DNA of 64,000 nucleotides from Hahella chejuensis KCTC 2396 (GTDB lineage Bacteria > Pseudomonadota > Gammaproteobacteria > Pseudomonadales > Oleiphilaceae), in contig NC_007645.1 of assembly GCF_000012985.1 (NCBI RefSeq), positions 2,634,501 through 2,698,500 of the forward strand. The letters are read 5' to 3'. The notes beneath the pieces were generated by a model, which worked only from the letters and a program-made list of their open reading frames with translations, ran no database searches and had not been told where the DNA came from. The translations under genes and the position numbers were made by a program. Positions 22,745 to 60,418 of this stretch are shown here, in pieces (within the stretch, counting starts at the first letter, position 1; each line of letters begins with the position of its first letter).

Positions 22745-24334
22745 TTAGCCGATAGTGCCGTTCACGATGGGTTGAAACGCAGTCAAACGGTCCAGGTCGG
22801 AAGATGAGCCAAGGCCGTGCTGCTGAAAGCCCGGGGTGGAGGAGAACTGGTTTTGCTCGTCATGTAACGCCATATAGTTAAGCACCACAGTGTTCACCAG
22901 CAGGTTCACGTTATTGGCGGCTGGGCTGGAGGCGGTTTCCACAGAGGCGTCAGCACGCATATGGCCAATCTGGCGATGCCTCTCCTGTTGCTCTATCGAG
23001 GACCCCAACAGCGTGGGACGGCCGTTCGGGTTGTAAACCAGGAAAAACGACGCAGCGGTGGAAGAGTTGTCGCCGGTCCATTCGCCTTTACCGCGTCCAT
23101 CCGCAGAGTCGTCAATACGGCCGTTACTGGCCACTGATCCGTCACTGAATACATACATCATCAGAGGGATACCCAGACGCGCAGCGTACTCCAGACAGGC
23201 TCCCATGCAGCGTCCTGCGCGTAGGTCGCGTCGTTCGCCCGTGGCGCGATCGCCGGTGTGATAGTCAAAGCCGCCCATGGTGATGGTGCCGGCGCCAGCA
23301 TAACCGTTCAGCACCATCTTCATTACTGAAGCGGTTTTTCTGAACTCGCCGTCGCTATCGAATTCAGCCTGGGAGAATATGCCGGACGGGCCGACAATAT
23401 CAGTATCAAGCGCTGGATTCAGCGAAGCGGGGTTGCCAAAGCGATCCGCCAGATCGGCGCTTTTCAAGTAGCCGCAGTCCACCAGTTTCTTTACAACCTC
23501 ATCGGTGGTGACTACGCCGGTTTTCTGATCGCTGATACGGTATATGGCTTCCATCACCGCTACCGCGTCGGACTGGTCCAATAGACCGACAAGATCGCCC
23601 ACATCCACCAAGCCTGTTACATCGCTGGGGCGGTCCACTTTGGTTGGGCGCACTTTGGGATTCATCAGCATCGCCGGGGCCATGGAGTTGCCGCCGGAAT
23701 CGGAGCTGCTGGAGCCAATCAGCGAGACCAGCGAACCATCCGCGCCGGCGTTGTAGATCCCATACATGGGATTGTGCGGGTTGTTGCCGGTATCGTTGTC
23801 CGAACGCGCAGGAATGACCGCGCCGTTGACAAAGCCGCGAGTAGTGGCCTGGGTTTTCTCCAGAATGCCGCGCAAAAATGCGCTGTCGGAGTGAAACGCC
23901 AGTCCCAGTTCCTGGTTGACGAAGCCGCCAGGAATGCCGGGAGAGCTACCGATGGCGGGGGTTATGTCGCCGGGTAGGCCGAGTTTGCTGTAACCCGCCG
24001 TGCTGAGAAAGTCCAACTGACCGCCCTGCTGTCCGACCAGGACGTTGGAGCCGGAAATGTTGGCGCCTCCCGCAAGATCGAAGCAGATGAATGGAATTTT
24101 TCCTGCGCCTTGTACCGCGATGCCGCAGGAAGATTTCAGCGACTCCAAATCCGAAGACAGTGCTGCGTGCGCCGCTTTTGGATTGGCGAAGAGACCCAGT
24201 ATGGAAGTGCCAAACATGGTTCCGGCGCCGGCCATAAAGCCCTGGGCGATAAAGTCCCTGCGGGTGACCGGGCGTTTGTGATCCGGATGAAACAGCGGCT
24301 CGTCGAGGCCGTAAGGTCCACGTCTTCTTGCCAT
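22745..24334 (-). CDS. Tat-exported DUF1501-like protein
   Basis: A 529-residue protein with a twin-arginine signal: TRRDFIAQGFMAGAGTMFG, then a hydrophobic stretch ending at AAHA. The body has the look of the DUF1501/sulfatase-like exported family: FICFDLAGGANISGSNV near residue 85, conserved Gly/Asp-rich loops, and GGFDYHTGD in the second half, where metal ligands would be expected. Such proteins usually sit next to cytochrome-like partners, as here: two CxxCH proteins precede it in the same leftward operon (gaps of 44 and 49 bp). It folds before export, so a cofactor is likely. The reaction is unknown. Confidence 0.75.
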   Translation of the reverse strand: MARRRGPYGLDEPLFHPDHKRPVTRRDFIAQGFMAGAGTMFGTSILGLFANPKAAHAALSSDLESLKSSCGIAVQGAGKIPFICFDLAGGANISGSNVLVGQQGGQLDFLSTAGYSKLGLPGDITPAIGSSPGIPGGFVNQELGLAFHSDSAFLRGILEKTQATTRGFVNGAVIPARSDNDTGNNPHNPMYGIYNAGADGSLVSLIGSSSSDSGGNSMAPAMLMNPKVRPTKVDRPSDVTGLVDVGDLVGLLDQSDAVAVMEAIYRISDQKTGVVTTDEVVKKLVDCGYLKSADLADRFGNPASLNPALDTDIVGPSGIFSQAEFDSDGEFRKTASVMKMVLNGYAGAGTITMGGFDYHTGDRATGERRDLRAGRCMGACLEYAARLGIPLMMYVFSDGSVASNGRIDDSADGRGKGEWTGDNSSTAASFFLVYNPNGRPTLLGSSIEQQERHRQIGHMRADASVETASSPAANNVNLLVNTVVLNYMALHDEQNQFSSTPGFQQHGLGSSSDLDRLTAFQPIVNGTIG

Positions 24335-24378
24335 GATAAAACCACCTCTATCGAAATGTTTGCCGTTGATCGTTTAAC

Positions 24379-26859
24379 TTATTGCACCAGCATCGTTGCG
24401 CTACCCAGTACGGCGGCGCAGCTTGCTTTGACAACTGTTTCGGTTCTGTCTGCGGAGCATCCGCCGCCGCATGCAACCAGTTTGTCGATCAACTGATTCA
24501 ATTCGGCTCTAACATCGGCGCCGTCCGGTTGTGACGCCAAGTTTACACCCATGCCTTTATCCAACAGTGGGTCAATGACCAAGTCTCTTCCCGCGCCGGA
24601 GAAAGCGCTGGAGGCGCTGGCGTTGAAATCAAAGCCAGGGAAGAACGCGCTGCGCAGTGTGCTGTTCTCCACCAGGGCGTCGCAATACTGGATCGCCAAC
24701 TGGGTGACTCCCATTTGATGCGACGCCAGGAACGTGTTGATGTTCTCGACAGTGGGCAACTGCTGCTTCACCGTTTCAAAGGTAGATCGTACACCAGGGT
24801 TGGAGGTGCTGACGCCGGTGATAGCGGACATGGTTGCGTTGATTTCGTCGAAGTTACGCAGGCCGATTTCAGGAACTGGATCGCCGTCGGCAGGAGCCCC
24901 GGGCGGTGTTGGTTCGGCTTCAAGAAACACGTGACTGTTAGACCCTAACAACTCGAAGGTCAGGAAGAACTCATCTTCTTCTGGCCCTTTTTCCAGGGCG
25001 ATGATGGTGCCTCTGTCGGACATGACCTGCCCGTTGTCTGGGGTATAGCTGGTTTCGTTCAGCGAAATGTCCATGTTCTTATAGGCTTGTCCAACGGTGA
25101 CTTCACGGCCGTTCATGCCAAGGCGCATGCCTTTGACGGGAATGTTTGAAGGCTCTACGTCCGGGTCAAGGCTGATAAAGAACGGCGCGTTGAACAGATA
25201 ACTGTAGCTGTCGAACTGGCTGACTTCGAACACGACATAGCTTTGCGGTACATCGATAAGGTGAGAGGTTCCAAACAGCAGGTAGAATTTCTGGCCGACG
25301 CCAGCGTCAAAATTCTGCGAAATCTGATCCTGCGTTAAGGCGCGATTATGCACCGCCACCATTCGGATGGTTCCTTGCCAGGGGCGATTATTGGAGGCTT
25401 CATTGCCCAGTACGAAGGCGAAGGTATCGTCCCAGTCGTTCAAGTTTCCTGAGGTCGTCATGTCCTCGTCGTCAGTGAACTCGCCGTTTACATAGATGCG
25501 GCGTCCGTTAGCCGGGCTGTAAGTGGCGACCACATGTTGCAATGTGGCCTGCAGGTCTTCGTCATTGTTGTCTGTGACCAGAGCGGGTTCGCCATTCTGA
25601 TCTGTCTCGCTGGTGCGGTTCAGGAAGCTGTAACTGTACAGAACCTGTCCCAACGTAAAGTTACGGGCGTTGACGCCGGCGGAATAACTGATGATGCGCG
25701 CAGGACCTTCCTGTGTAACGTTGCCGGGCGCGACCCAGGCTTCTATCGTGTATTCGCCGGTCGCTTTGATCAGGTCGTGCAGCTTCTTGCTATTAGAGGT
25801 GGCGCCTTGCGCCTTACCGCCGTTAAGCTTGATGCCCCAGCCGCCGACCCACTCTACGTCGTTGCTCAAAGTCAGGTTCAGTGCGGGCTCAATACCACTG
25901 GTGTCATAGGCGGTGACGCCTTCACCAGTTTTGAATTCGTACAAGGCGATAACATTTTGCTCGTAACGGCCGCCGCTGTTCGCCGCCAGACCATCCGTCA
26001 GGTTGAGCGCCTTACTGGCGACCAATTGCGGATCAATCTGGTCAGGGTCGATGGCGCTGGACAATGCGTTTACGGCCTCCAGCATTTGCGCTGCGTCATT
26101 GGCGCAGGAGCCGGACCAGCAGTTGTGGAACTCGTCGCGCAAACGCACTACGAAGCGTGAGTTGGCTGGTGTGCCCAGATCAATTTTGCTTTTCGCTGCG
26201 GCATAGGCGGAATCCACTTCAGCGGCTGCGAAGTAGGGGGATTGCGGAATCGCTGCGCTTTCCCGGTGACAACCTGCGCAATTCGCGGTCAGCAGTGGGT
26301 AAAGGGTAGAACTGAACAGTGCGGAGTCAGAGGGGAAGTTCTTGGTTTCGCCGGGATCTTTGTCCGCAGGGGCGATCAGATCAATTTTCTTGGTGTCGCC
26401 GGAAGCGCCGCCAGCCCAGTCGCTAATGTACTTGGTGATCAGCTCGCCGCAGATCTGTACGCTGCTTTCCCAGCAATTGTGGCCTTCGAGCACTTTCGAG
26501 ACCATGCGGGATTGCGAGGGGTCGCTGAGATTGACGACTTTATTCGCTTCAGAGTAAGCGATATTTATGTCGTCTTTGTGCACGAACATCGGGGTCTGAC
26601 CGCCAGAAGTATGACAGCCGCCGCACCGGTTGGTGGGAGAAAGTTTGTCCCACAGACCGAGCTTAAACTGTTGCACGTCGTCCGTCGCTGGGGCTGGGCC
26701 GCTATAGTTGCCGCCTTGCCCGGGACGATTTGTATTTGGCAGGTTCTCATTGGAAGCTCCGCTATTGCCGCCGCAACCGCTGAGCAGAATGCTGACCGCG
26801 GCGATCGCAATGGCGACCGCTCTTATTATCTGCTGTTGTATTGAGCTCATGGTATTCAC
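24379..26859 (-). CDS. Lipoprotein with two CxxCH heme motifs and LamG domain
   Basis: An 826-residue surface or periplasmic lipoprotein (lipobox LLSGC, Cys29). Two heme c-binding motifs are visible: CGGCH at 79-83 and CAGCH at 194-198, each in a small cytochrome-like unit followed by a disulfide-rich HNCW segment. Residues of about 300-530 form a LamG/concanavalin-like jelly roll (IALYEFKTGEGV, YTIEAWVAPGN, ATLQHVVATYS, GRRIYVNGEF, FVLGNEASNNRPWQG). The final part contains a Cys-rich tail. Second gene of the leftward operon with the DUF1501-like and DUF1585-like partners. LamG suggests binding of a carbohydrate or surface ligand. An electron-transfer role is inferred from the heme motifs. 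Confidence 0.8.
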   Translation of the reverse strand: MNTMSSIQQQIIRAVAIAIAAVSILLSGCGGNSGASNENLPNTNRPGQGGNYSGPAPATDDVQQFKLGLWDKLSPTNRCGGCHTSGGQTPMFVHKDDINIAYSEANKVVNLSDPSQSRMVSKVLEGHNCWESSVQICGELITKYISDWAGGASGDTKKIDLIAPADKDPGETKNFPSDSALFSSTLYPLLTANCAGCHRESAAIPQSPYFAAAEVDSAYAAAKSKIDLGTPANSRFVVRLRDEFHNCWSGSCANDAAQMLEAVNALSSAIDPDQIDPQLVASKALNLTDGLAANSGGRYEQNVIALYEFKTGEGVTAYDTSGIEPALNLTLSNDVEWVGGWGIKLNGGKAQGATSNSKKLHDLIKATGEYTIEAWVAPGNVTQEGPARIISYSAGVNARNFTLGQVLYSYSFLNRTSETDQNGEPALVTDNNDEDLQATLQHVVATYSPANGRRIYVNGEFTDDEDMTTSGNLNDWDDTFAFVLGNEASNNRPWQGTIRMVAVHNRALTQDQISQNFDAGVGQKFYLLFGTSHLIDVPQSYVVFEVSQFDSYSYLFNAPFFISLDPDVEPSNIPVKGMRLGMNGREVTVGQAYKNMDISLNETSYTPDNGQVMSDRGTIIALEKGPEEDEFFLTFELLGSNSHVFLEAEPTPPGAPADGDPVPEIGLRNFDEINATMSAITGVSTSNPGVRSTFETVKQQLPTVENINTFLASHQMGVTQLAIQYCDALVENSTLRSAFFPGFDFNASASSAFSGAGRDLVIDPLLDKGMGVNLASQPDGADVRAELNQLIDKLVACGGGCSADRTETVVKASCAAVLGSATMLVQ

Positions 26860-26908
26860 AGTCGTAATCCGATTAAGAATTCTTGTTTAGTGAAACAGGC
26901 AGCCTGTT

Positions 26909-28147
26909 TCACTCGCCCATGCAATATGCGGCTGATTCAGCGAACACTCGCTTCATTTTGTAGCCGCTGGCTTTGAATGAAGAAACCATTGTGCTGATCT
27001 GATTTCTGTCTGCGCTGTTAATCGGCGACCGCAGGCAAACGGTGCGGAAGACGTTTTTGACTTGGCACTGAGCAAAGGCCTCTGAATGCGCAAGCTCCAT
27101 ACCCATGCTTTTCGCTCCCTGGCCTGATCCGCTCAGACTACCGTCCCAGCCCAGCAGGCTGTTTTGTCCTGCGCGCCAGTAGTTGTCCCAATGATCGTCC
27201 GGGGTGACGTAACCGTACTCGAAGGTAGTGGAGTTGATATGATACTTGCCTTGTACGCGAGTGCCCGTATCCGGGTCCGTCATGCCTTCTGCGTTATATA
27301 ACAGCACTCCGTTTTCGCCGTCGGGGTCGGCGTCCATATCATATTCGTACTCATAATAAGCGAAGGCCTGCGCCATAGGATCCATGCCGCTGTGACAGCC
27401 TACGCAGTTGTTAAGGAATATTCGGCTGTCTCCGCCGGGGCTGCGCGATACATCCTGGCGAATACGGTCAGGAGAACGGGTGATATCTTTTACTTGCTCC
27501 AGATCGTTGCAAAGATGATTCATCAAGGTGAATCGGAACATGGCGCGGTTGGTGCCGCCGCTGAAGAAAGCCTTGGCCGCTGCGCGAGTGGTCATGACGC
27601 CAGCAGTGGCGTCGGCGGGCAGCGCTTGAGTTGTATGCACTAAGTCGTCTTTCAGGCTGGCGCCCTGAATTTCCAGAAATTCGTAATGAGCGTTATTCGC
27701 TAAAGAGTAGGCGGGCGCTCCCAGACTGCTTTTTCCGACATAAAGGTGATTGCCGTACAGCACTTCCCGAAAGTCTATCCCCAGAACCTCTTCATCCCGA
27801 ATCATTCCGACGACGGTGGCGGTATAGTCGTTCAGCGGCACAAATAATGACTGCGCCTCATTGGTCCAGGGCGCAACCATGTTTTTCAGAGTCACGTCAT
27901 AAAAATTTTTGTTTTCCATTGCTGTGTAAGCGGCGGCGATGGGGTCGCCGGAGGTTATATCACTGGCCATGTCGTTAAGGACCGCTTCGCTGGGCGGCAC
28001 TCCTGCTATACGGTCATGGATTCTCTTGGCCTGTTCCCTGGGGCCTGCCTCTGCTGCAGTAGATAGGGTTAAAGCCAGTGAGAGTAGAGATATAACGCAA
28101 CGCTTAACCTGTCTGCGCTTATTATCTATGGGAGTTAGACTACTCAT
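26909..28147 (-). CDS. Exported c-type cytochrome-like protein (DUF1588/1585-like)
   Basis: A 412-residue protein with a Sec signal (basic start, LLSLALTLSTAAEA) and one heme motif, CVGCH at 248-252, in the context LNNCVGCHSGMDPMAQAF. That layout, a cytochrome motif followed by xDPxxxAF, is typical of the DUF1588/DUF1585 group found beside DUF1501-type proteins. The region before it (FFSGGTNRAMFRFTLMNHLC) also fits. It is the first gene of the leftward three-gene operon and its start faces the divergent HZS-alpha-like gene. Probable periplasmic electron carrier or oxidase subunit; the substrate is unknown. Confidence 0.75.
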   Translation of the reverse strand: MSSLTPIDNKRRQVKRCVISLLSLALTLSTAAEAGPREQAKRIHDRIAGVPPSEAVLNDMASDITSGDPIAAAYTAMENKNFYDVTLKNMVAPWTNEAQSLFVPLNDYTATVVGMIRDEEVLGIDFREVLYGNHLYVGKSSLGAPAYSLANNAHYEFLEIQGASLKDDLVHTTQALPADATAGVMTTRAAAKAFFSGGTNRAMFRFTLMNHLCNDLEQVKDITRSPDRIRQDVSRSPGGDSRIFLNNCVGCHSGMDPMAQAFAYYEYEYDMDADPDGENGVLLYNAEGMTDPDTGTRVQGKYHINSTTFEYGYVTPDDHWDNYWRAGQNSLLGWDGSLSGSGQGAKSMGMELAHSEAFAQCQVKNVFRTVCLRSPINSADRNQISTMVSSFKASGYKMKRVFAESAAYCMGE

Positions 28148-28582: not shown

Positions 28583-31294
28583 ATGCTTATGAATAAAACA
28601 ATGACGCCGCCCAATAAATTATGCGTATCTGGATATAAACGATTTGGTCGGATATTTCCTTTATCTGCGTTGTCTGTAGCCCTTGCCGCCTGTGGCGGCG
28701 GTATCGGAGGCGCTAATCAGGACCCTGATCCTGTCATTCAGGATATTCCTATCGCCTACGTGAAACGCCCTTTGCTGGCTGATGAAGACAACAATCTGCT
28801 GAGCCTGGATGCTCGTGCGCCGCTCGATTTCCTCCCAGGGGGAGTGCTCTATCTGAGAAGCCAGGCTTCACCCAGCGCTCCGGAGCGGGACATTAGCTCC
28901 CAGGCGTTTCAGGGAGCGGAATACCTTAACGATGAAGGTCAGCTTCTGTACGACGTAAGAGACGTCGACGTCTCCTCCGATGGCTCCAAAATCGTCTTCG
29001 CCATGCGCGCGCCGGTGATCGAGGATGCGGATGAAGACGAGCAGCCAACCTGGAATATCTGGGAATACGACGTCGCATCTCGCAGTCTGGAGCGGGTGAT
29101 TGCGTCGGATAACGTAGCGGAGGCGGGGCACGATATAGGTCCGCATTACCTTCCTGACGGGCGTATTGTCTTTGCATCCACTCGGCAGCGGCAGTCTCAG
29201 GCGATATTGCTGGATGAAGGCAAGCCGCAGTTTGAAGCTTTGAATGAAGACCGTCGCGACCCGGCTCTGGCTCTCCATGTGATTAGTCCGGATACAGATG
29301 AGATCACGCAGATCACCTTCAACCAAAGTAGTGACCTGGACCCGTTTGTCGCCCAGAACGGCAAGATAGTCTTCACGCGCTGGGACAACATGGGCGGCAA
29401 TAACTCCATGAACCTGTATCAGGTGAATCCTGATGGAACCGGCCTGGAATATCTGTATGGACGCCATAGCCATGACACGGGCTCCAGTAATGAGGCGGTA
29501 CAGTTTCTCAAGCCTGTAGAGCTGGAGGACGGCCGTATTATGGTGAGTCTGCGTCCTTATCAAAGCAGTCGTTATGGCGGGGCGCTGGTTGCTATAGATG
29601 TGGAAAATTTCACAGAACATGATCAGCCCACCTATGAAAACCGGGGCCTGTTGACGAACGGCCAGTCCCGGCTGACGCCCAATGACGTCTCCACGGATGA
29701 TGATGTCCAGACGCTCGCCGGAACCTTCAATTCCGCCTATCCCATGTTGGATGGAACCGGTCGACTGTTGGTGAGCTGGAGTCAGTGTCGTTTGGTAGAC
29801 TCTGATAACGATATTGTGCCTTGCACCAAAGATCGCCTGGAAGACTCCGACTATCAGGCGGCGGCGCCTTTGTACGGGCTGTGGATCTATAATGCGGCGG
29901 ACGGCACGCAGTTGCCTGTGGTCATTCCCACTGAATTTACCTTGTACACCGATGCGGTGGTGCTGCAGAATCGCACCCGGCCGGACTTTATTCCTGACGG
30001 AGACGGTCTTGACGCTGATCTGGGCGATGCCGGGTATGGCGTGGTGCATATCCGAAGCGTCTACGATATTGACGGCGTGGACACAACCCCCGCGGGCGTA
30101 AGCGCCATGGCTGACCCTGTGCAGACGTCGGCGGATGATCGACCCGCTCGCTTCCTGCGAGTGGTTAAAGCGGTTTCTATGCCTGACGATGATATTATCG
30201 ATGTGCCCGGAACTGCATTCGGCGCCAGTGCGGGTCAATTAATGCGCGAAATACTTGGATATGTTCCCATTGAACCCGATGGCTCAGTGAAGTTCGCTGT
30301 GCCGGCGAATGTGGCGTTTGCGGTCAGCATCGTGGACAAGTCCGGTAAGCGCTCCAGCCCGCGGCATCAAAACTGGTTGCAAGTACGGCCGGGAGAGACG
30401 ATGGAATGCGTCGGCTGTCATACGGCTAACAGCGAATTGCCTCATGGACGCCCAGGCGCCCAGGCGCCATCTATCAATGTCGGCGCGGCCACCACCGGAC
30501 AGCCTTTCCCGAATACGGCCCCTGCGTTGTTCACCGATATGGGCGAAACGATGGCGGAAACCTACGCCCGAATTAACGGGTTGCGTTACCTGAATCCAGA
30601 CATTGTATTTGACGATGAGTGGACCGACGCTAATATTACTGCAAAAGCGGAGAGTTTCAGTTACGCCTATGCCGATTTGGCTGGTAGTGCGCCTATAACA
30701 AGCGCATGCGCCTCCCCTAAGGATGCGAAATGTCGTGTGGTGATTAATTACGAGACCCATATTCATCCTCTATGGGGTAAAAATCGTCAGGTCTTGGATG
30801 ATGACGGAACTACTGTGTTGGCGGATAACACTTGTAACACATGCCACGGACTCACCGACGCCATGACGATGGTTCAAGTTCCCGCAGCACAATTGGATTT
30901 AGGCGATGGGCCTTCTACAGATCAGGCGGACCACTTTAAATCGTATCGTGAACTGCTGTTCAACGATGCGGAGCAGGAGCTTATCGAAGGAGTGCTTGTG
31001 GACCGTCAGGTTCCTGTCCTGGACAATGAAGGCAACCCAGTATTTGAGACGAATGGCGACGGCGATCTGATTCTGGATGACGATGGCAATCCAATCCCGG
31101 TGACGACCACTGTCGCTGTCAATCGCTCGATGACGCCGCAGGGAGCTGTCGCCAGCACTCGCTTTTTCGCGCCTTTCCAGACAGGGGGAAGCCATGAAGG
31201 ATGGCTTGACCCGGTCGAGTTGAAGTTGATATCCGAGTGGCTGGATATTGGAGCGCAGTACTATAACAACCCATTTGACGTTCCACAGGACTAA
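28583..31294 (+). CDS. Lipoprotein with beta-propeller-like body and two CxxCH motifs (HZS-alpha-like)
   Basis: A 903-residue lipoprotein (lipobox ALAAC). The N-terminal ~500 residues look like a TolB/propeller fold, with repeated blocks such as VDVSSDGSKIVFAMRAP, HYLPDGRIVFASTRQ and DPFVAQNGKIVFTRWDN. This layout is shared with proteins annotated as hydrazine synthase alpha-subunit middle domain, which are common outside anammox bacteria. Two heme motifs follow: CVGCH near 609-613 and CNTCH near 751-755. The ATG at 28583 is followed by another at 28589. It leads the rightward series; the next gene starts 6 bp after its stop. There is no reason to expect hydrazine chemistry here; a surface redox enzyme is more likely. 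Confidence 0.75.
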   Translation: MLMNKTMTPPNKLCVSGYKRFGRIFPLSALSVALAACGGGIGGANQDPDPVIQDIPIAYVKRPLLADEDNNLLSLDARAPLDFLPGGVLYLRSQASPSAPERDISSQAFQGAEYLNDEGQLLYDVRDVDVSSDGSKIVFAMRAPVIEDADEDEQPTWNIWEYDVASRSLERVIASDNVAEAGHDIGPHYLPDGRIVFASTRQRQSQAILLDEGKPQFEALNEDRRDPALALHVISPDTDEITQITFNQSSDLDPFVAQNGKIVFTRWDNMGGNNSMNLYQVNPDGTGLEYLYGRHSHDTGSSNEAVQFLKPVELEDGRIMVSLRPYQSSRYGGALVAIDVENFTEHDQPTYENRGLLTNGQSRLTPNDVSTDDDVQTLAGTFNSAYPMLDGTGRLLVSWSQCRLVDSDNDIVPCTKDRLEDSDYQAAAPLYGLWIYNAADGTQLPVVIPTEFTLYTDAVVLQNRTRPDFIPDGDGLDADLGDAGYGVVHIRSVYDIDGVDTTPAGVSAMADPVQTSADDRPARFLRVVKAVSMPDDDIIDVPGTAFGASAGQLMREILGYVPIEPDGSVKFAVPANVAFAVSIVDKSGKRSSPRHQNWLQVRPGETMECVGCHTANSELPHGRPGAQAPSINVGAATTGQPFPNTAPALFTDMGETMAETYARINGLRYLNPDIVFDDEWTDANITAKAESFSYAYADLAGSAPITSACASPKDAKCRVVINYETHIHPLWGKNRQVLDDDGTTVLADNTCNTCHGLTDAMTMVQVPAAQLDLGDGPSTDQADHFKSYRELLFNDAEQELIEGVLVDRQVPVLDNEGNPVFETNGDGDLILDDDGNPIPVTTTVAVNRSMTPQGAVASTRFFAPFQTGGSHEGWLDPVELKLISEWLDIGAQYYNNPFDVPQD

Positions 31295-31300
31295 AGACAC

Positions 31301-32047
31301 TTGTTAGCGGTAAGAATATTCCCGGTTTGGTTGATTATCCTTTGTTGCTTTTCACTGAAGAGTTTTGCTGAAGACGATTATCAGACAGTAGATGTCGCCG
31401 AGCCCTACCTTGAGTTCCGTACGGGACCAGGTCGGGGCTACCCGGTGTTTTTCGTCGTCGAGCAAGGCGAGCAAATTGAAATTCTCAAACGGAAAACCGA
31501 ATGGTTCAAAGTGCGCAACGCCAAAGGGCAGGAAGGCTGGGCCAGCCGTGCGCAGATGGAAATGACTCTGGATGGAAGCGGCGAACAGGTCGCTTTCAGC
31601 GAGCCGCGCTTTGACGACTTTTCCTCACGTAGCTGGGAGGGCGGCGTCGCTACCGGCGACTTTGGCGGCGCAGCGGTGAACTCCATGTATGTGGGTTACC
31701 TCTTCACTCCCAATTTATCAACAGAGCTTTGGGCTTCTCAGGTGTTGGGCGACTTTTCCCAGATCATGATCGCGGACCTGAATATTGTGCACCAGCCTTT
31801 CCCTCACTGGCGTATTTCTCCTTTCTTCACGTTGGGAACCGGCGCCGCGTTCATCAAGCCGAAAGCGACGCTGGTGAATGAAGACAACAGGGTTGAGGAA
31901 GCCGTACATTACGGGCTCGGGGTCAGATGGTACATGACCAACCGTTATTTTATCCGGATGGAATACAAAGACTACGTGGTCTTCACAGACCGCGACGAAA
32001 ACGAAGAAGCAGAAGAATGGAAAATTGGATTAAGCGTATTTTTCTAA
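31301..32047 (+). CDS. SH3 domain plus outer-membrane beta-barrel protein
   Basis: A 248-residue exported protein. The signal peptide is at about 1-23 (VWLIILCCFSLKSFA). A bacterial SH3 domain follows (about 28-85: LEFRTGPGRGYPVFFVVEQG, then KVRNAKGQEGWASRAQ), then an eight-strand-type barrel ending in Phe (EEWKIGLSVFF), the usual outer-membrane insertion signature. The start codon is TTG, with AGGA 10 bp upstream. It sits 6 bp after the two-heme lipoprotein gene and overlaps the next barrel gene by 31 bp, so all three are co-translated. The periplasmic SH3 may contact peptidoglycan or a partner protein. Confidence 0.75.
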   Translation: MLAVRIFPVWLIILCCFSLKSFAEDDYQTVDVAEPYLEFRTGPGRGYPVFFVVEQGEQIEILKRKTEWFKVRNAKGQEGWASRAQMEMTLDGSGEQVAFSEPRFDDFSSRSWEGGVATGDFGGAAVNSMYVGYLFTPNLSTELWASQVLGDFSQIMIADLNIVHQPFPHWRISPFFTLGTGAAFIKPKATLVNEDNRVEEAVHYGLGVRWYMTNRYFIRMEYKDYVVFTDRDENEEAEEWKIGLSVFF

Positions 32048-32712
32048 CCAACGGCCGGCGCCCGGTCGCCGGCGCCGCACTGGCGTGCGCGATAGCGGCG
32101 GCGGGCGCCGGGCAGGCGTTTGCGGAGGAAGCGGATGCGGAGTCGGAGCCAGTTGTTAAACCGCTGATTGAGCCAGAAGTGACGCCGCGCCGCGTTCAGG
32201 AAGACCTGATTGACACGGAAGACTTTGAAGTCGGCGTATACACTGGCCTGATGAGTGTGGAGGACTTCGGCGTTAACTTCGTGATAGGCGCGCGCGTGGC
32301 TTACCATATTAATGAAGACCTGTTCGTTGAGGGCAACTATGGCTTTACCGACACCAGCGAGACCAGCTATGAAAAGCTGAGCGGCTCCGCCAAATTGCTG
32401 AAAGACGATGAGCGCGACCTGACTTATTACAACCTTTCTCTCGGATATAACATTTTTCCTGGGGAAATATTCCTGGGCAGTAAATACGCCTTCAATACCA
32501 ATTTCTATGTCGTGGGTGGGTTGGGCAGCACTCAGTTCGCCGGCGATGATCGCTTGACGGCCAACTTCGGCTGGGGGTTTCAGGTGTTGGGGACTGACTG
32601 GTTGTCCCTGCATCTGGGCATGAGAGACCACATTTTCGACACCGATATCCTGGGCGAGGACAAGAAAACCCATAACCTGGAAATGACTACAGGCCTGTCT
32701 GTTTTCTTCTAG
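32017..32712 (+). CDS. Outer-membrane beta-barrel protein
   Basis: A 231-residue protein starting at the ATG at 32017 inside the end of the previous gene. Signal peptide with a basic start and Ala-rich core (AGAALACAIAAAGAGQAFA), then an acidic linker, then alternating amphipathic strands and a terminal LEMTTGLSVFF, again with C-terminal Phe. The last motif nearly repeats that of the preceding gene, so the two barrels are probably distant paralogues. The longer frame from 31927 adds 30 Arg-rich residues that block a signal peptide, so it was rejected. Confidence 0.75.
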   Translation: MENWIKRIFLTNGRRPVAGAALACAIAAAGAGQAFAEEADAESEPVVKPLIEPEVTPRRVQEDLIDTEDFEVGVYTGLMSVEDFGVNFVIGARVAYHINEDLFVEGNYGFTDTSETSYEKLSGSAKLLKDDERDLTYYNLSLGYNIFPGEIFLGSKYAFNTNFYVVGGLGSTQFAGDDRLTANFGWGFQVLGTDWLSLHLGMRDHIFDTDILGEDKKTHNLEMTTGLSVFF

Positions 32713-32766: not shown

Positions 32767-33276
32767 ATGAAAACGAAATTCTTTAAAAGTGTGGCGGCGC
32801 TCTGCTTTGTGCTCTCCGCTTCCGTTTTGTCTCTGGGCGCGGGCGCTGCGGAGATCAAAGGACCGGCGGCGGACTTTACGCTGAAAAGCTCACTGGGCAA
32901 GAATCTGCGCCTGCAGGAATATCGCGGCCAAGTGGTGCTGATCAATTTTTGGGCTTCCTGGTGCGGCCCCTGTCGTCAGGAAATGCCGATACTGGAAGAT
33001 ATTTACAAGAAGTACGAAAAATTCGGCTTCACCATTTTCGCAGTGAATGTGGATGAAGATTCTTCTCTGGCTAACGAGTTCCTGAAAGACACCAAGGTCA
33101 CTTTCCCGATTCTCTACGACAACCAGAATAAGGTCAGCCGCTTGTATGACGTAAAAGCGATGCCGACAACGGTCATCGTGGATAGAAACGGCAATATGCG
33201 ATACCTGCACAAAGGCTACCAGCCAGGTACGGAAGATCATTACGTCAAAGAAGTCAAAGCGCTGATTCGCGAGTAA
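32767..33276 (+). CDS. TlpA-family periplasmic thioredoxin
   Basis: A 169-residue thiol-disulfide protein. Signal peptide to about residue 28 (AGAA cut), then AADFTLKSSLGKNLRLQEY, the TlpA/AhpC-type entry, with the active site WCGPC at 65-69 and the cis-Pro loop KAMPTTVIVD. Works in the periplasm on cysteine pairs; in TlpA/ResA relatives the target is the CxxCH of apocytochromes. This neighbourhood holds three CxxCH proteins and a Cys-tailed micro-lipoprotein 7 bp downstream, so either could be its client. Confidence 0.9.
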   Translation: MKTKFFKSVAALCFVLSASVLSLGAGAAEIKGPAADFTLKSSLGKNLRLQEYRGQVVLINFWASWCGPCRQEMPILEDIYKKYEKFGFTIFAVNVDEDSSLANEFLKDTKVTFPILYDNQNKVSRLYDVKAMPTTVIVDRNGNMRYLHKGYQPGTEDHYVKEVKALIRE

Positions 33277-33283
33277 AACAACA

Positions 33284-33505
33284 ATGAAAAAGTGGCTATT
33301 CCTGCTGTGGGCTCCCATGATTTTGGGAGGCTGCAGCAGTATCGAACCCTGGGTCATGCCTTATGAGCGTAATAACCTCGCCGACCCGATTATGAGCTTT
33401 GGCCGCATAGGCATTGCCGGCTCTTATATGCATCACGTCTATCAGGCCCGGGAGGGCGCGCGCGGCGCTGAAGGCGGTTCCGGCGGAGGCTGTGGCTGTA
33501 ACTGA
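33284..33505 (+). CDS. Micro-lipoprotein with C-terminal GGGCGCN (DUF4266-like)
   Basis: A 73-residue lipoprotein: signal with lipobox ILGGC (Cys17), a conserved-looking core (PWVMPYERNNLADPIM, then HHVYQAREGARG), and a Gly-rich tail ending GGSGGGCGCN. Core and tail match what I recall of the DUF4266 family. The two tail cysteines and Asn form a potential modification or metal site. The gene is 7 bp after the TlpA-type thioredoxin and 1 bp before the DUF3570-like gene. The function of the family is unknown to me; its steady pairing with DUF3570, TlpA and ApbE suggests a maturation product. Confidence 0.85.
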   Translation: MKKWLFLLWAPMILGGCSSIEPWVMPYERNNLADPIMSFGRIGIAGSYMHHVYQAREGARGAEGGSGGGCGCN

Positions 33506-33506
33506 T

Positions 33507-34643
33507 ATGAGAAACCTACACCGCATTGTAGCGATATTCAGTTTATTGGCGACGGCGTTATCCGCCGGCGCCGCCGTATTGCCTGAAGAGAAAGCGGAAG
33601 CGATGTATCACCGCTACGAAGGCGGGGGTATGGAGATCGACGGTCCATCCGTCCTGGTAAGAAAGAACTTCGACGCCAGCTTCTCTTTGAGCGCCAATTA
33701 TTATGTCGACTCAGTCAGCTCCGCATCCGTGGACGTACTGGCGCGGGCGACTCCCTATGAAGAAGAGCGGACGGAAGGCGGCCTGGGCGTGGACTATTTG
33801 TACAACAAGTCCATCATGAGCTTCGCTTATACCAACAGTCAGGAAAATGATTTCGACGCTGAGTCTATCCACTTCAATATCAGTCAGGACTTTTTCGGCG
33901 ATCTGACCACCCTGTCAATGGGCTATTCGAAAGGGTGGGATAACGTACGGAGCAAACTGGACCCGTCTCTAAATGAGGAAGTGGATCGGCAACATTACCG
34001 TCTTGGCGTCACGCAGGTGCTGACCAAGAATGCGCTGCTCAACCTGGATATTGAGACGGTTACGGATGAAGGCTATTTGAATAACCCATACCGGGTATAC
34101 CGTTTCCTGGATAGCAGCAGCCCGAAAGGCTACGAGTACCGAATAGAGAAGTACCCGAAAACGCGCACCAGCAACGCCGTGGCGCTGCGAGGCATGTACT
34201 ACCTGCCATATCGGGCGGCTATCAAAGGCGAATTCCGGTATTTTTCCGACTCATGGAACATCAAGGGCTACAACTATGAATTGGCGTACGTACACCCGTT
34301 CGGCGATCAATTCATTACCGAATTCAAGTTCCGCCACTATGAGCAAACCAAAGCGGAGTTCTACGACGACCTGTTCGAAGGCGAAGACGTCCGTACTTTT
34401 ATGGGGCGCGACAAGGAACTGAGTACGTATAGCGGCGACAGCGTCGGCGTTGGTCTGACTTATGAATTCAATAAAGGTTTCTCCTTTATCGAAAAAGGCA
34501 GCATCAACCTGTTTGTCGACTTTATGAAATTTGAATATGAGGACTTCCGCGACGTGACGCGAACCGGCTTTGCGCCTGGGGAAGAGCCTTTGTACGAATT
34601 TGACGCCACCGTGATTCGCTTTTTCGTCACCGCTTCCTACTGA
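33507..34643 (+). CDS. DUF3570-like outer-membrane protein
   Basis: A 378-residue protein starting at the ATG just after the micro-lipoprotein stop. Signal peptide to about residue 22 (SLLATALSAGAA). The body alternates amphipathic strands (FSLSANYYVDSVSSASVDV near the start, typical for DUF3570) and ends DATVIRFFVTASY with an aromatic C-terminus, as in outer-membrane barrels. The longer frame starting at 33414 lies inside the preceding gene and has no signal peptide. Partner of the DUF4266-like protein; it may be its outer-membrane receptor or exporter. Confidence 0.8.
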   Translation: MRNLHRIVAIFSLLATALSAGAAVLPEEKAEAMYHRYEGGGMEIDGPSVLVRKNFDASFSLSANYYVDSVSSASVDVLARATPYEEERTEGGLGVDYLYNKSIMSFAYTNSQENDFDAESIHFNISQDFFGDLTTLSMGYSKGWDNVRSKLDPSLNEEVDRQHYRLGVTQVLTKNALLNLDIETVTDEGYLNNPYRVYRFLDSSSPKGYEYRIEKYPKTRTSNAVALRGMYYLPYRAAIKGEFRYFSDSWNIKGYNYELAYVHPFGDQFITEFKFRHYEQTKAEFYDDLFEGEDVRTFMGRDKELSTYSGDSVGVGLTYEFNKGFSFIEKGSINLFVDFMKFEYEDFRDVTRTGFAPGEEPLYEFDATVIRFFVTASY

Positions 34644-34697: not shown

Positions 34698-35294
34698 ATG
34701 AATTACAAAAACAGCCTGGCCCATGCATTGTTCCTGATTTTGCTGCTGTTGTCGGTCATGGCCCGGGCGGAGGAGGGCGCTGAAGACGCCGTCCCCGCTG
34801 ACGCGATGCAGCTAGCGGATGACGCCGGCATGGCCTCCGTGGACCCCGACACGCCTATCGTGGATCAGGTGCAGTCGCTCAAACAGAAAGCGATTGAGTT
34901 GAACCGCGACCTGTTCATTCTTGAGGAAGACCTGCTGTTTCCCGCCAGTACGCAGTTTGTCGTGTTTCTTTCCGTCGACGTTGGCGAGTTTTTCCAGCTG
35001 GATGCGGTGGAAGTCAAAATCGATGGCGAAACGGTGGCCAGTCACCTCTATACCCAACGTCAGGCCAAGGCTCTGTACAAAGGCGGTATGCAGCGTTTGC
35101 ACATTGGCAACCTGAAGACCGGTGAACATGAAATTACCGCATTTTTCACTGGAGTAGGGCCCGATAACCGCGATTATAAGCGCGGCGCCACACAAAAATT
35201 CGCAAAGGGCTCAGACATCAAAACGCTGGAGTTGCGCATTACCGACTCGACCAAGAAGTACCAACCTGAATTCACCGTCGTCGAATGGGAATAA
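34698..35294 (+). CDS. Exported protein of TPR cassette 1 (paralogue of 59860 gene)
   Basis: A 198-residue periplasmic protein: signal peptide to about 24, a short acidic spacer, a coiled-coil-like helix (SLKQKAIELNRDLFILEEDL) and a beta-sandwich-like part (VVFLSVDVGEFFQLDAVEV, then GGMQRLHIGNLKTGEH). The gene at 59860 encodes the same order of blocks (ALKQRVIELNRELYKLQEE, VVFFLAVDENVGFELDSVEL, GGVQRLFMGNLPAGAH). It is the first gene of a cassette with two large TPR proteins. No named domain recognised; the sandwich may be an Ig-like protein-binding fold. Confidence 0.75.
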   Translation: MNYKNSLAHALFLILLLLSVMARAEEGAEDAVPADAMQLADDAGMASVDPDTPIVDQVQSLKQKAIELNRDLFILEEDLLFPASTQFVVFLSVDVGEFFQLDAVEVKIDGETVASHLYTQRQAKALYKGGMQRLHIGNLKTGEHEITAFFTGVGPDNRDYKRGATQKFAKGSDIKTLELRITDSTKKYQPEFTVVEWE

Positions 35295-37254: not shown

Positions 37255-40142
37255 GGGCGTTGACGTTAACCGCCATCGCGGTCGTGGTGAGCGGCTGTTC
37301 GCTGTTTTCCGGTTCTGAGGAAAGTCGTCGCGCTGCGGATCAGCCGACAATCGCCGATTTGAAGCCTGCGATCATTGAGGATCAGGGCGAAGAAACGGTG
37401 AACATCAATATTGATGAAGTCATCGCCAATTACACAGATCTGCTGACCGTTGTCGAAGATCCGGAAACCCGCACCAAGATTCTCTACCGACTGGCGGATT
37501 TGCAGATGATCCGCAATGAAGAGTCTTCCGTGACGCAGGAAGTGGTGGACTACTCGGAAGGCTCGGCGGCTTATTTCGCTGTGGCCATTTCCGCGTATGA
37601 AGGGTTGTTGAAGAAATATCCTAATCGGGCGGAAAACGACCAGGTGTTGTACCAGTTGGCGAAAGCCTATGACCTGGAAGGGCGTCGCGATGACTCCTTC
37701 AACGCGCTGAACCGCTTGGTGAAAGAGTACCCGCGTTCATCTTACTTCCATGAAGCGCAGTTCCGGCGCGGCGAGATACTGTTCACTAATGGCGACTATG
37801 ACGCCTCTCAGCGGGCTTTTGAGTCGGTCATTCGCGGCGGCGCCAAAACCGGCTTTGAGCAACAGGCGCTCTACATGCATGGGTGGAGTCTGTTCAAGCA
37901 GGGGGAGTACGAGACCTCTCTGGACAGCTTTGTCAAAGTGCTGGATCTGGTGATGCCGGAATCGGATGACTTGGACGCGTTGTCTAAAGAGTCCCGTACT
38001 CTGGTGGAGGATCAGCTGCGGGTAATGGGCTTCGCCTTCAATTATCTGGATGGGGTGGATACCGTTACGAGTCTGTTTGCGAGAGTCGGCGCGCGTAGCT
38101 ATGAACACCTGATTTATCAGCAATACGGCGAGCTGCTGGTCAAAGAGGAGCGTTATACGGATGCGGTTTCCGTCTATCGACGCTTTATCGAACTGCATCC
38201 ACTCAGCAAATGGTCGCCTTATTACCAGGAGCGCGTCATTCAAACGCTCATCGTGGCGGGCTTCGGCAGCTCGGTGCTGCCGGAAAAGGCGGCGTTTGTG
38301 AAAAACTATGGCGTCACCAGCGATTTTTATTGGCGGCAGCAGGACGAGAAGGTTAAAGCCTTCACCGCCGACAAATTGCGCGTATATATCGACGAATTGG
38401 CGACGCATCATCACGCCGCCGCACAGACGCTGGACAGAAATGTTGCTGCAGGCCGCAATGGCAGAGCGAAAGGGCTGGACGGTAAGGAAATAAGCGCACA
38501 GCAGGCGCGTACGGCCATGCGCGATGAGTACGCCAGCGCCGCCGCCTATTATCAGGAGTTTGTGGATACCTTCCCGCAAGATCCGAAAGCGCCCCAGATG
38601 GTGTTCCTGCGTGGCGAAACCTTATTCGCTGTGCAGCGATACGAAGAAGCGATAGTCGCCTACGAAAAAGCGGCGTATGAATACCAGGGCTTCGCCAAAG
38701 GCGCAGAGGCGGGGTATGCGGCGATCACTGCTTTTGATGAATTGGCGTCCGGCTCTGCTGAAGCTGAGCGCGCGCAGATTGAACTGCGCAAAATTGAAAG
38801 CCAGATTCGCTTCGCCCAATCCTATGCGTCTGATCCTAGAGCAGGGGCCGTAATGGCGTCGGCGGCGGAGAAGCTGTTCGCCATGAAGGATTACCCCCGC
38901 GCGATCGACGTGGCGCAAAGGCTGACGCAACGCACGCCGCCGCCGGATAATGCGTCATTGCTGGGCGCCTGGTTGATCATCAGCCACAGCCAATTTGAAC
39001 TCAAGCAATATGCGGAAGCGGAAAAATCCTATTCCCGCGTATTGGCGCTGATGCCGGCGAACGACAAGCGTCGCGGCGAGATCGCAGAACTGCTCGCCGC
39101 CAGTATTTATAAACAAGGCGAACTGATGCTGGCCGCCAATGACGTCAATGGCGCGATTGATCAGTTTTTGCGTGTTGGACAGGCGGCTCCCACAGCGTCA
39201 GTGCGCGCGAATGCGGATTATGACGCCGCCACCTACATGCTGCAGCAGGGCCAGTGGGATAGAGCGATCTCTGTGTTGAATGGTTTCCGCCAGCGTTATC
39301 CGCAGCATGAACTGGCGAAAGACGTACCCGCCAAGTTGGCGATGGCTTATCGCAATACCGAACAATGGGATGCGGCGGCAGGTGAGTTGGCGGTGATATC
39401 GCAGAGTCATCCTGACGGCGAAACCCGACGAGAGTCGCTGCTGTTGTCGGCGGAACTGTATGAAAAGAGCGGTCAGACTCAGAAAGCCATAGACACCTAC
39501 CGGGATTATGCTAACAGCTACCCGGAGCCGGCGGATATGGCGGCGGAGGCGGGCTACACGTTGAGCGAGCTGTACGCCAAGGCGAATGACCCTATCAAGC
39601 AGCGTTTCTGGCTGCAGAAGGTGGTGCAAGGGTACGACGCAGCCGGGTCGAAAGGCTCTGATCGTATGCGCTATCTCGCGGCGAAGTCCTCCAGCGTCCT
39701 GGCGGATGACGCTTTCATACAGTTCAAGAGCATCAAGCTGACGGCGCCGCTGCAAAATTCTTTGCGCTCCAAACAGGAGGCGATGAAACGGGCGATGGCG
39801 GCTTACAAGAAAACAGCGAATTATCGTATTGCGGAATTCACGACACGTTCATCCTTCCGCTTGGGAGAAATCTATTCTCAGCTCAGCCGCGACTTGCTGG
39901 ACTCTGAACGTCCCCGCAATCTCAATGAGCTGGAATTGGAGCAGTACCAGCTATTGCTGGAGGAGCAGGCGTATCCCTTCGAGGAAAACGCAATTGAACT
40001 GCATGAGGCGAACGCGCAGCGGAGCTGGAGCGGAACCTACGATGAATGGGTGAAAAACAGCTTTGAAGCGTTGAAAAAACTGTTCCCCGCACGCTATAAA
40101 AAATCGGAAGAGATCCCAGAGTTCAGTGAAAACATTCTTTAG
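37251..40142 (+). CDS. Giant TPR lipoprotein, cassette 1
   Basis: A 963-residue lipoprotein (lipobox VVSGC, Cys16) made almost wholly of TPR-like helix pairs, clear in DQVLYQLAKAYDLEGRRDD, EAQFRRGEILFTNGDYDAS, QQALYMHGWSLFKQGEYET and SLLGAWLIISHSQFELKQY. Probably anchored in the outer membrane and facing the periplasm. It overlaps the previous gene by 4 bp and the next by 17 bp. Its paralogue begins at 62170 and shares the blocks NDxVLYQLAxA and VxxYPRSxY. The repeat architecture resembles the TPR components of Myxococcus Agl-Glt-like envelope machines; this comparison is from memory. Confidence 0.82.
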   Translation: MRALTLTAIAVVVSGCSLFSGSEESRRAADQPTIADLKPAIIEDQGEETVNINIDEVIANYTDLLTVVEDPETRTKILYRLADLQMIRNEESSVTQEVVDYSEGSAAYFAVAISAYEGLLKKYPNRAENDQVLYQLAKAYDLEGRRDDSFNALNRLVKEYPRSSYFHEAQFRRGEILFTNGDYDASQRAFESVIRGGAKTGFEQQALYMHGWSLFKQGEYETSLDSFVKVLDLVMPESDDLDALSKESRTLVEDQLRVMGFAFNYLDGVDTVTSLFARVGARSYEHLIYQQYGELLVKEERYTDAVSVYRRFIELHPLSKWSPYYQERVIQTLIVAGFGSSVLPEKAAFVKNYGVTSDFYWRQQDEKVKAFTADKLRVYIDELATHHHAAAQTLDRNVAAGRNGRAKGLDGKEISAQQARTAMRDEYASAAAYYQEFVDTFPQDPKAPQMVFLRGETLFAVQRYEEAIVAYEKAAYEYQGFAKGAEAGYAAITAFDELASGSAEAERAQIELRKIESQIRFAQSYASDPRAGAVMASAAEKLFAMKDYPRAIDVAQRLTQRTPPPDNASLLGAWLIISHSQFELKQYAEAEKSYSRVLALMPANDKRRGEIAELLAASIYKQGELMLAANDVNGAIDQFLRVGQAAPTASVRANADYDAATYMLQQGQWDRAISVLNGFRQRYPQHELAKDVPAKLAMAYRNTEQWDAAAGELAVISQSHPDGETRRESLLLSAELYEKSGQTQKAIDTYRDYANSYPEPADMAAEAGYTLSELYAKANDPIKQRFWLQKVVQGYDAAGSKGSDRMRYLAAKSSSVLADDAFIQFKSIKLTAPLQNSLRSKQEAMKRAMAAYKKTANYRIAEFTTRSSFRLGEIYSQLSRDLLDSERPRNLNELELEQYQLLLEEQAYPFEENAIELHEANAQRSWSGTYDEWVKNSFEALKKLFPARYKKSEEIPEFSENIL

Positions 40143-40737
40143 TCGTATAAGCAGTCTTCGCGTCGGTTGTCTGGCATTGACTCTGTTGCTGGCGGCCTGT
40201 TCCGGCGCGCCTCAGAAACCGTCGAACAACGGCGGGGCGACAGGGGGGGCGGACCTCTCTCAGGTTCCCGAAGGCGCCCGCAATCAGTACGCCGCCGCAT
40301 TGCGTGATCAAAAAGCCCGTAATTTCGGCTCCGCCCTGAAGAAATTTCAGACGGTCAGCGAAGACTATCCGCAGTTGTCCGGCCCGTACATCAATATGGG
40401 CATCATCTATATGAATACCGACGCGCCGGATCAGGCGCAGGCGATGTTCGAAAAGGCAGTCAGCGTGAACGGACTGAACCCGGAAGGGTATACCCTGTTG
40501 GGATATCTGGCCCGTCGTCAGGGGAAGTTCACGGAGGCGGAAGAATATTACCGCAAAGCGATCGCCGTTGACGGTTCCTATGCGCCCGCCCGGTTGAATC
40601 TGGGCATTACCTATGATTTGTACATGGGCAAACTGAAGGAAGCATTGGAGCAATATCAGATTTATCAAAGCCTGCAGGCGCAACCCGACGATGAAGTGAA
40701 TCGTTGGATTGTCGATCTGCAGAGCCGACTACAGTGA
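40126..40737 (+). CDS. Small TPR lipoprotein, cassette 1
   Basis: A 203-residue lipoprotein (lipobox LLAAC, Cys25) with a Gly/Asn-rich spacer and three to four TPRs: YAAALRDQKARNFGSALKKF, PYINMGIIYMNTDAPDQAQ, GYTLLGYLARRQGKFTEAEE, ARLNLGITYDLYMGKLKEA. It starts inside the last codons of the giant TPR lipoprotein gene, so it is coupled to it. It resembles PilF/NlpI-size helpers, but its context ties it to the cassette. The window ends before it could show whether cassette 2 has a counterpart. Confidence 0.82.
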   Translation: MKTFFSRISSLRVGCLALTLLLAACSGAPQKPSNNGGATGGADLSQVPEGARNQYAAALRDQKARNFGSALKKFQTVSEDYPQLSGPYINMGIIYMNTDAPDQAQAMFEKAVSVNGLNPEGYTLLGYLARRQGKFTEAEEYYRKAIAVDGSYAPARLNLGITYDLYMGKLKEALEQYQIYQSLQAQPDDEVNRWIVDLQSRLQ

Positions 40738-40751
40738 CAGGAGGGCAGGGT

Positions 40752-41078
40752 ATGAGTCGTCAATCCCAGCCTAAGAACGTTTTTATCAGTCTGGCTCTGG
40801 TCGCCTCAGTCTGGGCGGTGAGCCCGGCGGCGCAGGCGGAGACAGAAGTGATTACCGTGGATGGCGCAACATTGCGTGGCAATCAGGAGCAGCCTCAGGT
40901 GCTTTATATTGTGCCCTGGAGGAAGCCCCGTAAGCTTGCGGGGTTAGGCGACTCCGCCGCGTCGTTGATCAACGATGAAGTATTGAAGCCGATTGACCGC
41001 GAAGAATTCGTGCGGCAGGTGGATTACTACGAACTGTTCAAAGACGATGCCTCCGCGCCGTCCGAAACGCCTAAGTAA
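40752..41078 (+). CDS. Short exported protein ending cassette 1
   Basis: A 108-residue protein with a signal peptide (VFISLALVASVWAVSPAAQA) and a short mature chain containing ATLRGNQEQPQVLYIVPWRK and an acidic tail. The VLYIVPWR segment is familiar from small proteins near TPR/TolQR clusters, but I cannot name the family. The ATG at 40752 has GGAGGGCAGGG upstream; the longer frame from 40704 would overlap the TPR gene and lacks an export signal. Last gene of the rightward series; a large hairpin at 41139 follows. Confidence 0.65.
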   Translation: MSRQSQPKNVFISLALVASVWAVSPAAQAETEVITVDGATLRGNQEQPQVLYIVPWRKPRKLAGLGDSAASLINDEVLKPIDREEFVRQVDYYELFKDDASAPSETPK

Positions 41079-60393: not shown

Positions 60394-60418
60394 GCGCCGC
60401 GGGCTAAGGTCGAACGCC

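Follow-up and report, generated by a model that had tools for sequence, protein, structure and literature searches.

The locus described here raises the question of what a lipoprotein of only 73 residues, ending in a glycine-rich Cys-Gly-Cys tail, does between a thioredoxin and a DUF3570 beta-barrel. It lies in a 64,000-nucleotide stretch of the Hahella chejuensis KCTC 2396 genome (hereafter the window), whose features are collected in Table 1. The initial annotation of this DNA had described the gene order thioredoxin, lipoprotein, DUF3570, with the lipoprotein ending in GGGCGCN, an ApbE gene in the same locus and a DUF4266-like family, and all of this is borne out by the gene positions, by the reading frame with its lipobox, and by a match to PF14086 (DUF4266) over the full model length (E 2.6e-21, 76.7 bits against a cut-off of 27). 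A single base separates the DUF4266 gene from the DUF3570 gene, and a divergent gene block stands between the ApbE gene and the DUF4266 operon, such that ApbE lies about 11 kb upstream and is not adjacent. Display of the lipoprotein at the outer membrane, also proposed in that annotation, agrees with our survey; sorting of lipoproteins depends on the residue after the lipidated cysteine, and only 1 of 123 DUF4266 proteins (loose pattern) has an aspartate at this position, as predicted for the outer membrane type.

Table 1. Features of the window, with positions counted from its first letter.
Feature	Position	Strand	Evidence or remark
ApbE, FAD:protein FMN transferase	21661..22653	+	PF02424 E 6.2e-83
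Secreted protein, twin-arginine-like start	22745..24334	-	no Pfam or NCBIfam match
LamG-domain lipoprotein-like protein, two CxxCH	24379..26859	-	PF13385 E 1.5e-22
Protein with one CxxCH, weak PSD2 (DUF1585) match	26909..28147	-	PF07624 E 5.4e-4, under cut-off
Hydrazine-synthase-alpha-like (HzsA-like) protein, lipoprotein-like N-terminus	28583..31294	+	PF18582 E 3.7e-15
SH3 and OMP-barrel-like protein	31301..32047	+	PF08239 E 4.6e-11; OMP_b-brl 27.6 bits, just under cut-off 28.7
OMP beta-barrel (TIGR04565 OMP_myx_plus)	32017..32712	+	E 1.1e-50, 171.8 bits, cut-off 60; searched from 32020, ATG at 32017 read from sequence
TlpA/ResA-type thioredoxin, WCGPC, cleavable-signal-like N-terminus	32767..33276	+	Redoxin E 6.3e-31; AhpC-TSA E 7e-31
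DUF4266 micro-lipoprotein, 73 aa	33284..33505	+	ORF; lipid Cys17, lipobox GGC; PF14086
GGGCGCN tail, residues 67-73, Cys70-Gly71-Cys72	33482..33502	+	C-terminal; read from sequence
DUF3570 beta-barrel, putative flavin carrier	33507..34643	+	PF12094 E 4.9e-41
Relaxed ApbE motif D-S-V-S-S-A-S, residues 68-74	33708..33728	+	Ser74 the expected FMN acceptor
Secreted protein of about 200 aa, AMIN35 (arbitrary label)	34698..35294	+	no Pfam or NCBIfam match
TPR protein, 640 aa	35332..37254	+	
TPR lipoprotein-like protein, 963 aa	37251..40142	+	
TPR lipoprotein, weakly GltE-like	40126..40737	+	NF033758 E 2.2e-9, 36.8 bits, cut-off 225
Small conserved secreted protein	40752..41078	+	no Pfam or NCBIfam match

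Predicted structures contributed little to this picture. The model of the DUF4266 protein (pLDDT 50) is too poor to show tail flexibility or to serve for a structure search, the DUF3570 model is strand-rich with low confidence (pLDDT 61.7), and both are too weak to place the flavin motif on the periplasmic side. Searches of solved structures with seven-sequence profiles gave no match for DUF4266 and weak matches only for DUF3570 (E 0.42 or worse). The window thioredoxin matches solved ResA structures (E 3e-24) and scores 132 bits against the ResA model, under its cut-off of 170. Elsewhere in the window, positions 6970-17421 encode a protein of 3483 residues that contains numerous RTX calcium-binding repeats and has a prefix match of BapA-like type, and transposase-like fragments, judged from reading frames, occur at 41-370 and 4606-5254.

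Part of the answer is already in print. Meheust et al. (2021; PMC8238504) described clusters of ApbE, DUF3570, thioredoxin and DUF4266, with DsbD in some of them, demonstrated that the Chlorobium luteolum DUF3570 protein is flavinylated by its ApbE at two [ST]GA[ST] motifs, and suggested that the CXC motif of DUF4266 may undergo redox cycling. The gene set is thus published, as is the proposal of redox cycling, which the initial annotation overlooked in stating that it knew of no function for the family. The C-terminal CXC of the family is present in the window protein. The additions of the present work are a second type of locus (type II), a relaxed flavin motif, and a joint loss of tail and motif, no description of which was found in the literature searched.

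Co-occurrence of DUF4266 with DUF3570 in other genomes had been put forward as the first check, and it is nearly complete. DUF4266 is found in 90 of 369 genomes of the class and DUF3570 in 95, all 90 lying within the 95 (lists matched by hand; the Fisher p of 1e-80 ignores relatedness). In the order of G318 (196 genomes), 122 genomes have DUF3570, 117 have DUF4266 and 116 have both by hand comparison, and in a sample of the phylum DUF4266 occurs in 21 of 299 genomes. Gene assignment in the fetched loci used profiles built up from the proteins of the window; as a single-sequence query in a scan of named genomes the window DUF3570 protein recovers only six relatives, and an Aliiglaciecola strain is one marine isolate that carries the locus. 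For 114 of the 136 DUF4266 genes a co-oriented TlpA gene is present within 1.7 kb, with CxxC found in 110 of the 114, and none was detected within that distance of the other 22, some of which are on short contigs. These 136 include nine divergent DUF4266 places that were fetched later and stand outside the 127 typed loci; a further nine (G628:C14, G449:C19, G349:C112, G471:C23, G375:C351, G336:C66, G607:C32, G507:C80 and G506:C54) were not fetched. L055 (G018, a match under the cut-off) holds no DUF4266 by the grown profile and was left out, and L144 and one L140 copy, with no DUF3570 within 1.7 kb downstream, are not evaluable. Among genomes with DUF3570 and no DUF4266, G433 gives a weak match (43.6 bits) and the places in G479 and G797 are truncated at the end of the contig; such places in G751, G754, G802 and G832 were left unfetched. 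G506 (C54:56365-57138) seems to carry a second copy in decay, in which the DUF4266 match covers only model positions 1-25 and the adjoining DUF3570 frame is interrupted by a stop.

Classification of the surrounding genes revealed two types of locus, of which the compact type I typically runs TlpA-DUF4266-DUF3570-ApbE, and type II, to which the window locus belongs, has TlpA-DUF4266-DUF3570 preceded by genes for an HzsA-like protein and a pair of barrel proteins. A locus counted as type II when two or more of five genes (those for the HzsA-like protein, both extra barrels, AMIN35 and the long TPR protein) lay within 6.5 kb, and the 127 entries (130 minus three duplicates) comprise 54 type II and 73 type I loci, or 55 and 72 with L078 assigned by tree, this locus having first been typed I because of its short contig. 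Upstream sequence of at least 6 kb and downstream sequence of at least 6.7 kb is available for 47 type II loci; both barrels are present in all 47, HzsA-like and TlpA proteins in 46 each, and AMIN35 and two TPR genes each in 28 or 29 (AMIN35 in 29, same strand and no more than 7.5 kb away). A protein with at least two CxxCH motifs lies within 6 kb of 49 of 51 type II loci versus 3 of 53 type I loci. There is some circularity in these counts, as the HzsA-like and barrel genes helped to define the type. Independent support comes from a DUF3570 tree (quick method), since it was built without the type-defining genes, in which 57 type II rows and one row labelled type I form a single group (SH-aLRT 100). 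In a second tree, which combines the type II rows with L078 and five type I rows, L078 falls within type II.

The window HzsA-like protein carries two CxxCH motifs, at residues 609 and 751 (the motif scan itself counts from 0). The divergent block at 22745-28147 encodes three secreted proteins, two with CxxCH and one with a LamG domain, and resembles planctomycete genes of the PSD/PSCyt type; relatives of the protein with the twin-arginine-like start lie upstream on the opposite strand in many type II loci. A third arrangement was observed in L169-L172 (G590, G337, G607 and G399), where DUF4266 ends in GCGCEQ and DUF3570 follows 1.7-1.9 kb further on; in L170 a lipoprotein-like protein of 530 residues lies between them.

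The two types also differ at the flavin site. In type I, 61 of 70 DUF3570 proteins carry [ST]GA[ST] within their first 300 residues, and the nine without the canonical motif mostly have close variants such as TGSS. At the aligned type II site we find SSAS in 29, SGAS in 13, TSAS in nine, and SNAS, SSAT, TAAS and SAAS in one each, and the pattern D..[ST].A[ST] is kept in all 55 type II DUF3570 proteins beside a tailed DUF4266. A review gives the ApbE consensus as D-x-x-[ST]-G-A-[ST] and reports that a model substrate with alanine in place of the glycine is flavinylated about half as much (PMC12052999). From this tolerance, and from four type II loci (L073, L080, L090 and L095) where ApbE directly follows an SSAS barrel, we think that the window DUF3570 protein is probably still flavinylated. 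A loss of flavinylation in SSAS proteins was considered and dropped on the same grounds and on the retention of the acceptor serine.

Of the covered loci, 44 of 50 in type I have ApbE itself within 6.5 kb and 17 of 33 in type II have it within 13 kb, with none inside that distance in the other 16; ApbE is present somewhere in all 29 genomes checked, mostly ones with type II loci. An expectation that motif type would track the presence of ApbE in the locus was only partly borne out in these 33 type II loci (SGAS 5/5, SSAS 10/22, TSAS 1/5, TAAS 1/1). The H. chejuensis genome has one other ApbE match, which follows the nqr genes, and the window ApbE is therefore not the nqr copy. Two proteins near that second copy, with DGFSGAT and DALSGAS, we take by position and motif to be NqrB and NqrC.

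The evidence that bears most directly on the tail comes from its conservation and its natural losses. GCGC followed by one or two residues ends all 136 distinct DUF4266 proteins in the fetched loci (GCGCN 122, GCGCY 7, GCGCEQ 4, and GCGCS, GCGCE and GCGCD one each), a count that is biased because the search profile includes the tail. For this reason tail-less relatives were sought, and four turned up in the search. In G318 and G820 a DUF4266-like N-terminus without the tail is fused to DUF3570. A reading-frame scan of G318 found no other frame that holds the tail, and its fused part, for which Pfam reports nothing even at E 10, was recognised with our own DUF4266 profile (E 8.7e-7 in a small set) and by inspection; the G820 match is weak (E 0.0015). 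G788 encodes a separate DUF4266 protein of 72 residues without the tail, and in G356 and G486 no TlpA or DUF4266 gene stands in the interval from the barrel gene to DUF3570.

In all five of these evaluable type II relatives without the tail (G318, G356, G486, G788 and G820) the flavin motif of DUF3570 is gone as well. As a set, the motif sites of the five read EQVNDDS, EQVRESS, ESIRGLP, EQISGLP and DQVRAPD, the losses in G788 and G820 being read by eye; a serine is still near or at the acceptor column in G318 and G820, and an SGAT in the signal peptide of G486 is a chance occurrence. G808, of the same genus as G788, has both the tail and DQVTGAS. The first three tail-less relatives (G318, G356 and G486) compared with 54 give a Fisher p of 3.4e-5, and on the tree the joint loss amounts to only two independent events (sign test p 0.5); the position of G788 is unsure because its very long branch attaches beside G318 and G820, away from G808. 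G318 and G788 still have a TlpA with CGPC; in G820 none was detected. G318 has no HzsA-like gene in the 19.9 kb read, and in G356 a three-CxxCH HzsA-like protein remains without TlpA, DUF4266 or the flavin motif, which argues that the heme part is independent of the shuttle proposed below. One exception stands outside type II: in G822, a type I draft genome, DUF4266 is fused to DUF3570 and the tail is absent, but DTLTGAT is kept. Whether loss of both cysteines is tolerated had been named at the outset as a decisive point, and the outcome is divided, as in type II the tail is lost only together with the flavin motif (5/5), whereas the type I case retains it.

We lean, at somewhat better than an even chance, towards a model in which the DUF4266 tail is a lipid-tethered thiol-disulfide shuttle between the thioredoxin and the flavin of the barrel. 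The lipid would anchor DUF4266 on the periplasmic face of the outer membrane, with a mostly hydrophilic, glycine-rich stretch bearing the free C-terminal Cys-Gly-Cys. The TlpA-type thioredoxin would exchange its disulfide with this Cys-Gly-Cys, ApbE would attach FMN to the DUF3570 barrel (at Ser74 in the window, provided that SSAS is flavinylated), and the tail could then trade two electrons with this FMN through a presumed contact with the flavin. In type II loci electrons may further pass to, or come from, the c-type hemes of the HzsA-like protein. The presence of DsbD in some published clusters (PMC8238504) suggests that the flow would be outward. If this model is correct, the natural losses make the coupling of tail and motif testable with simple mutants. 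A bare Cys-Gly-Cys tail on a lipoprotein would then be a dedicated carrier from the periplasmic thiol pool to an outer membrane flavin, a step for which we know of no established carrier.

Other functions for the tail have to be weighed against this shuttle. ResA and CcmG keep the cysteines of c-type cytochromes reduced for heme attachment, and TlpA and DUF4266 could do likewise, given that the thioredoxin is ResA-like and that proteins with at least two CxxCH motifs accompany nearly all type II loci, partly by definition. The same DUF4266 tail, however, is found in type I loci, where such proteins are rare, and the three-CxxCH protein of G356 persists with neither TlpA nor DUF4266 in its locus, and we regard a role in cytochrome maturation as quite unlikely. 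The tail could instead bind a metal such as Cu(I), with the lipoprotein delivering or buffering it at the outer membrane in the manner of copper-chaperone CXC tails; CXC motifs do occur in the literature on the copper chaperone Ccs, and metal binding would equally account for an invariant tail. The coupling that we find is nevertheless to DUF3570 and its flavin motif, and no copper gene was recognised among the annotated window genes; we regard metal binding as an unlikely explanation.

A purely structural lipoprotein, acting as partner or plug of the DUF3570 barrel and required for the barrel to fold or insert, would suit the near-perfect co-occurrence of the two families and their fusion in G318, G820 and G822. 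Since the barrel persists in fusions without the tail, and a plug would leave two invariant cysteines unexplained, we consider this role improbable to a considerable degree. Modification of the peptide itself, as the initial annotation had envisaged, would make the tail the substrate of a peptide-modifying enzyme and the lipoprotein a means of displaying the product, in keeping with a short, precursor-like protein and an invariant Gly/Cys C-terminus. A motif scan found no ApbE motif in the window DUF4266 protein, the ApbE-type motif sits in DUF3570, and the published ApbE substrate is likewise DUF3570 (PMC8238504). Modification by an MNIO-type enzyme is also unsupported in the 30 DUF4266 genomes searched, as MNIO is absent from seven and has no gene near the locus in the other 23, the nearest on the same contig being about 96 kb away. 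The idea of a modified tail is not supported by these searches for ApbE motifs and MNIO genes, and we judge it very improbable.

The lipid-tethered shuttle may also bear on the remainder of the type II operon, which in the window ends in TPR proteins and a TPR lipoprotein. The series AMIN35, TPR, TPR and TPR lipoprotein recurs as a second copy that starts at 59860, fills 59860-64000 and continues past the window (L157:361-9053), where it is joined by a TolQ/ExbB protein (PF01618, E 1.9e-29), two TolR/ExbD proteins (PF02472, E 1.9e-11 and 1.3e-23) and a GltG-like protein. This TolQ, TolR and GltG-like set is absent from the window's own type II operon, and it stands by the type II locus itself in L158-L160 (G267, G345 and G379) and in G318 (L161). 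Each of the four downstream regions fetched (L157-L160) has a relative of the small conserved secreted protein at 40752..41078. Scores against the GltE and GltG models are far under their cut-offs (54.8 of 225 and 39.8 of 650 bits), and the likeness to Glt/Agl is for that reason one of resemblance and not of membership, although the AgmX/PglI C-terminal domain model scores 53.7 bits against a cut-off of 40. The clustering of TPR proteins with a TPR lipoprotein, TolQ, a pair of TolR proteins and a GltG-like protein recalls the Glt/Agl core of Luciano et al. (2011; PMC3169522), who reported the gammaproteobacterial core complex to be of unknown function; the likeness here comes from profile models, and the word thioredoxin is absent from the main text of that paper. 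A wider and rather doubtful proposal is that type II constitutes an outer membrane relay, running from thioredoxin thiols through the Cys-Gly-Cys arm and the covalent FMN barrel to the c-hemes of an HzsA-like surface protein, and built into a Glt/Agl-like envelope machine driven by the proton motive force. If true, this would be the first activity for the gammaproteobacterial core complex. The type II locus would in that case link the coupling of tail and motif to HzsA-like cytochromes outside anammox bacteria and to a Glt/Agl-like core, both of which are unexplained.

In the Erv/ALR sulfhydryl oxidases the flavoenzyme itself carries the tail, and its flavin is a non-covalent FAD, unlike the arrangement proposed here, in which tail and flavin would sit on separate proteins. 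The functional analogy, with no homology claimed, lies in a mobile cysteine pair that carries electrons between thiols and flavin, as in these oxidases and in the Mia40-Erv1 relay with the CPC motif of Mia40; the shuttle disulfides on mobile tails of the Erv family include Cys-X-Cys (PMC3509050), a motif that is present in the window DUF4266 tail. Relative to the clusters of Meheust et al. (PMC8238504), the window locus has all four families, ApbE, DUF3570, thioredoxin and DUF4266, and since SSAS replaces [ST]GA[ST] in its DUF3570 protein it is a variant and not a typical member. It further differs from the clusters as published there in its larger size, in an ApbE gene 11 kb away, and in the addition of an HzsA-like multiheme protein, extra barrels and a TPR/Glt-like set.
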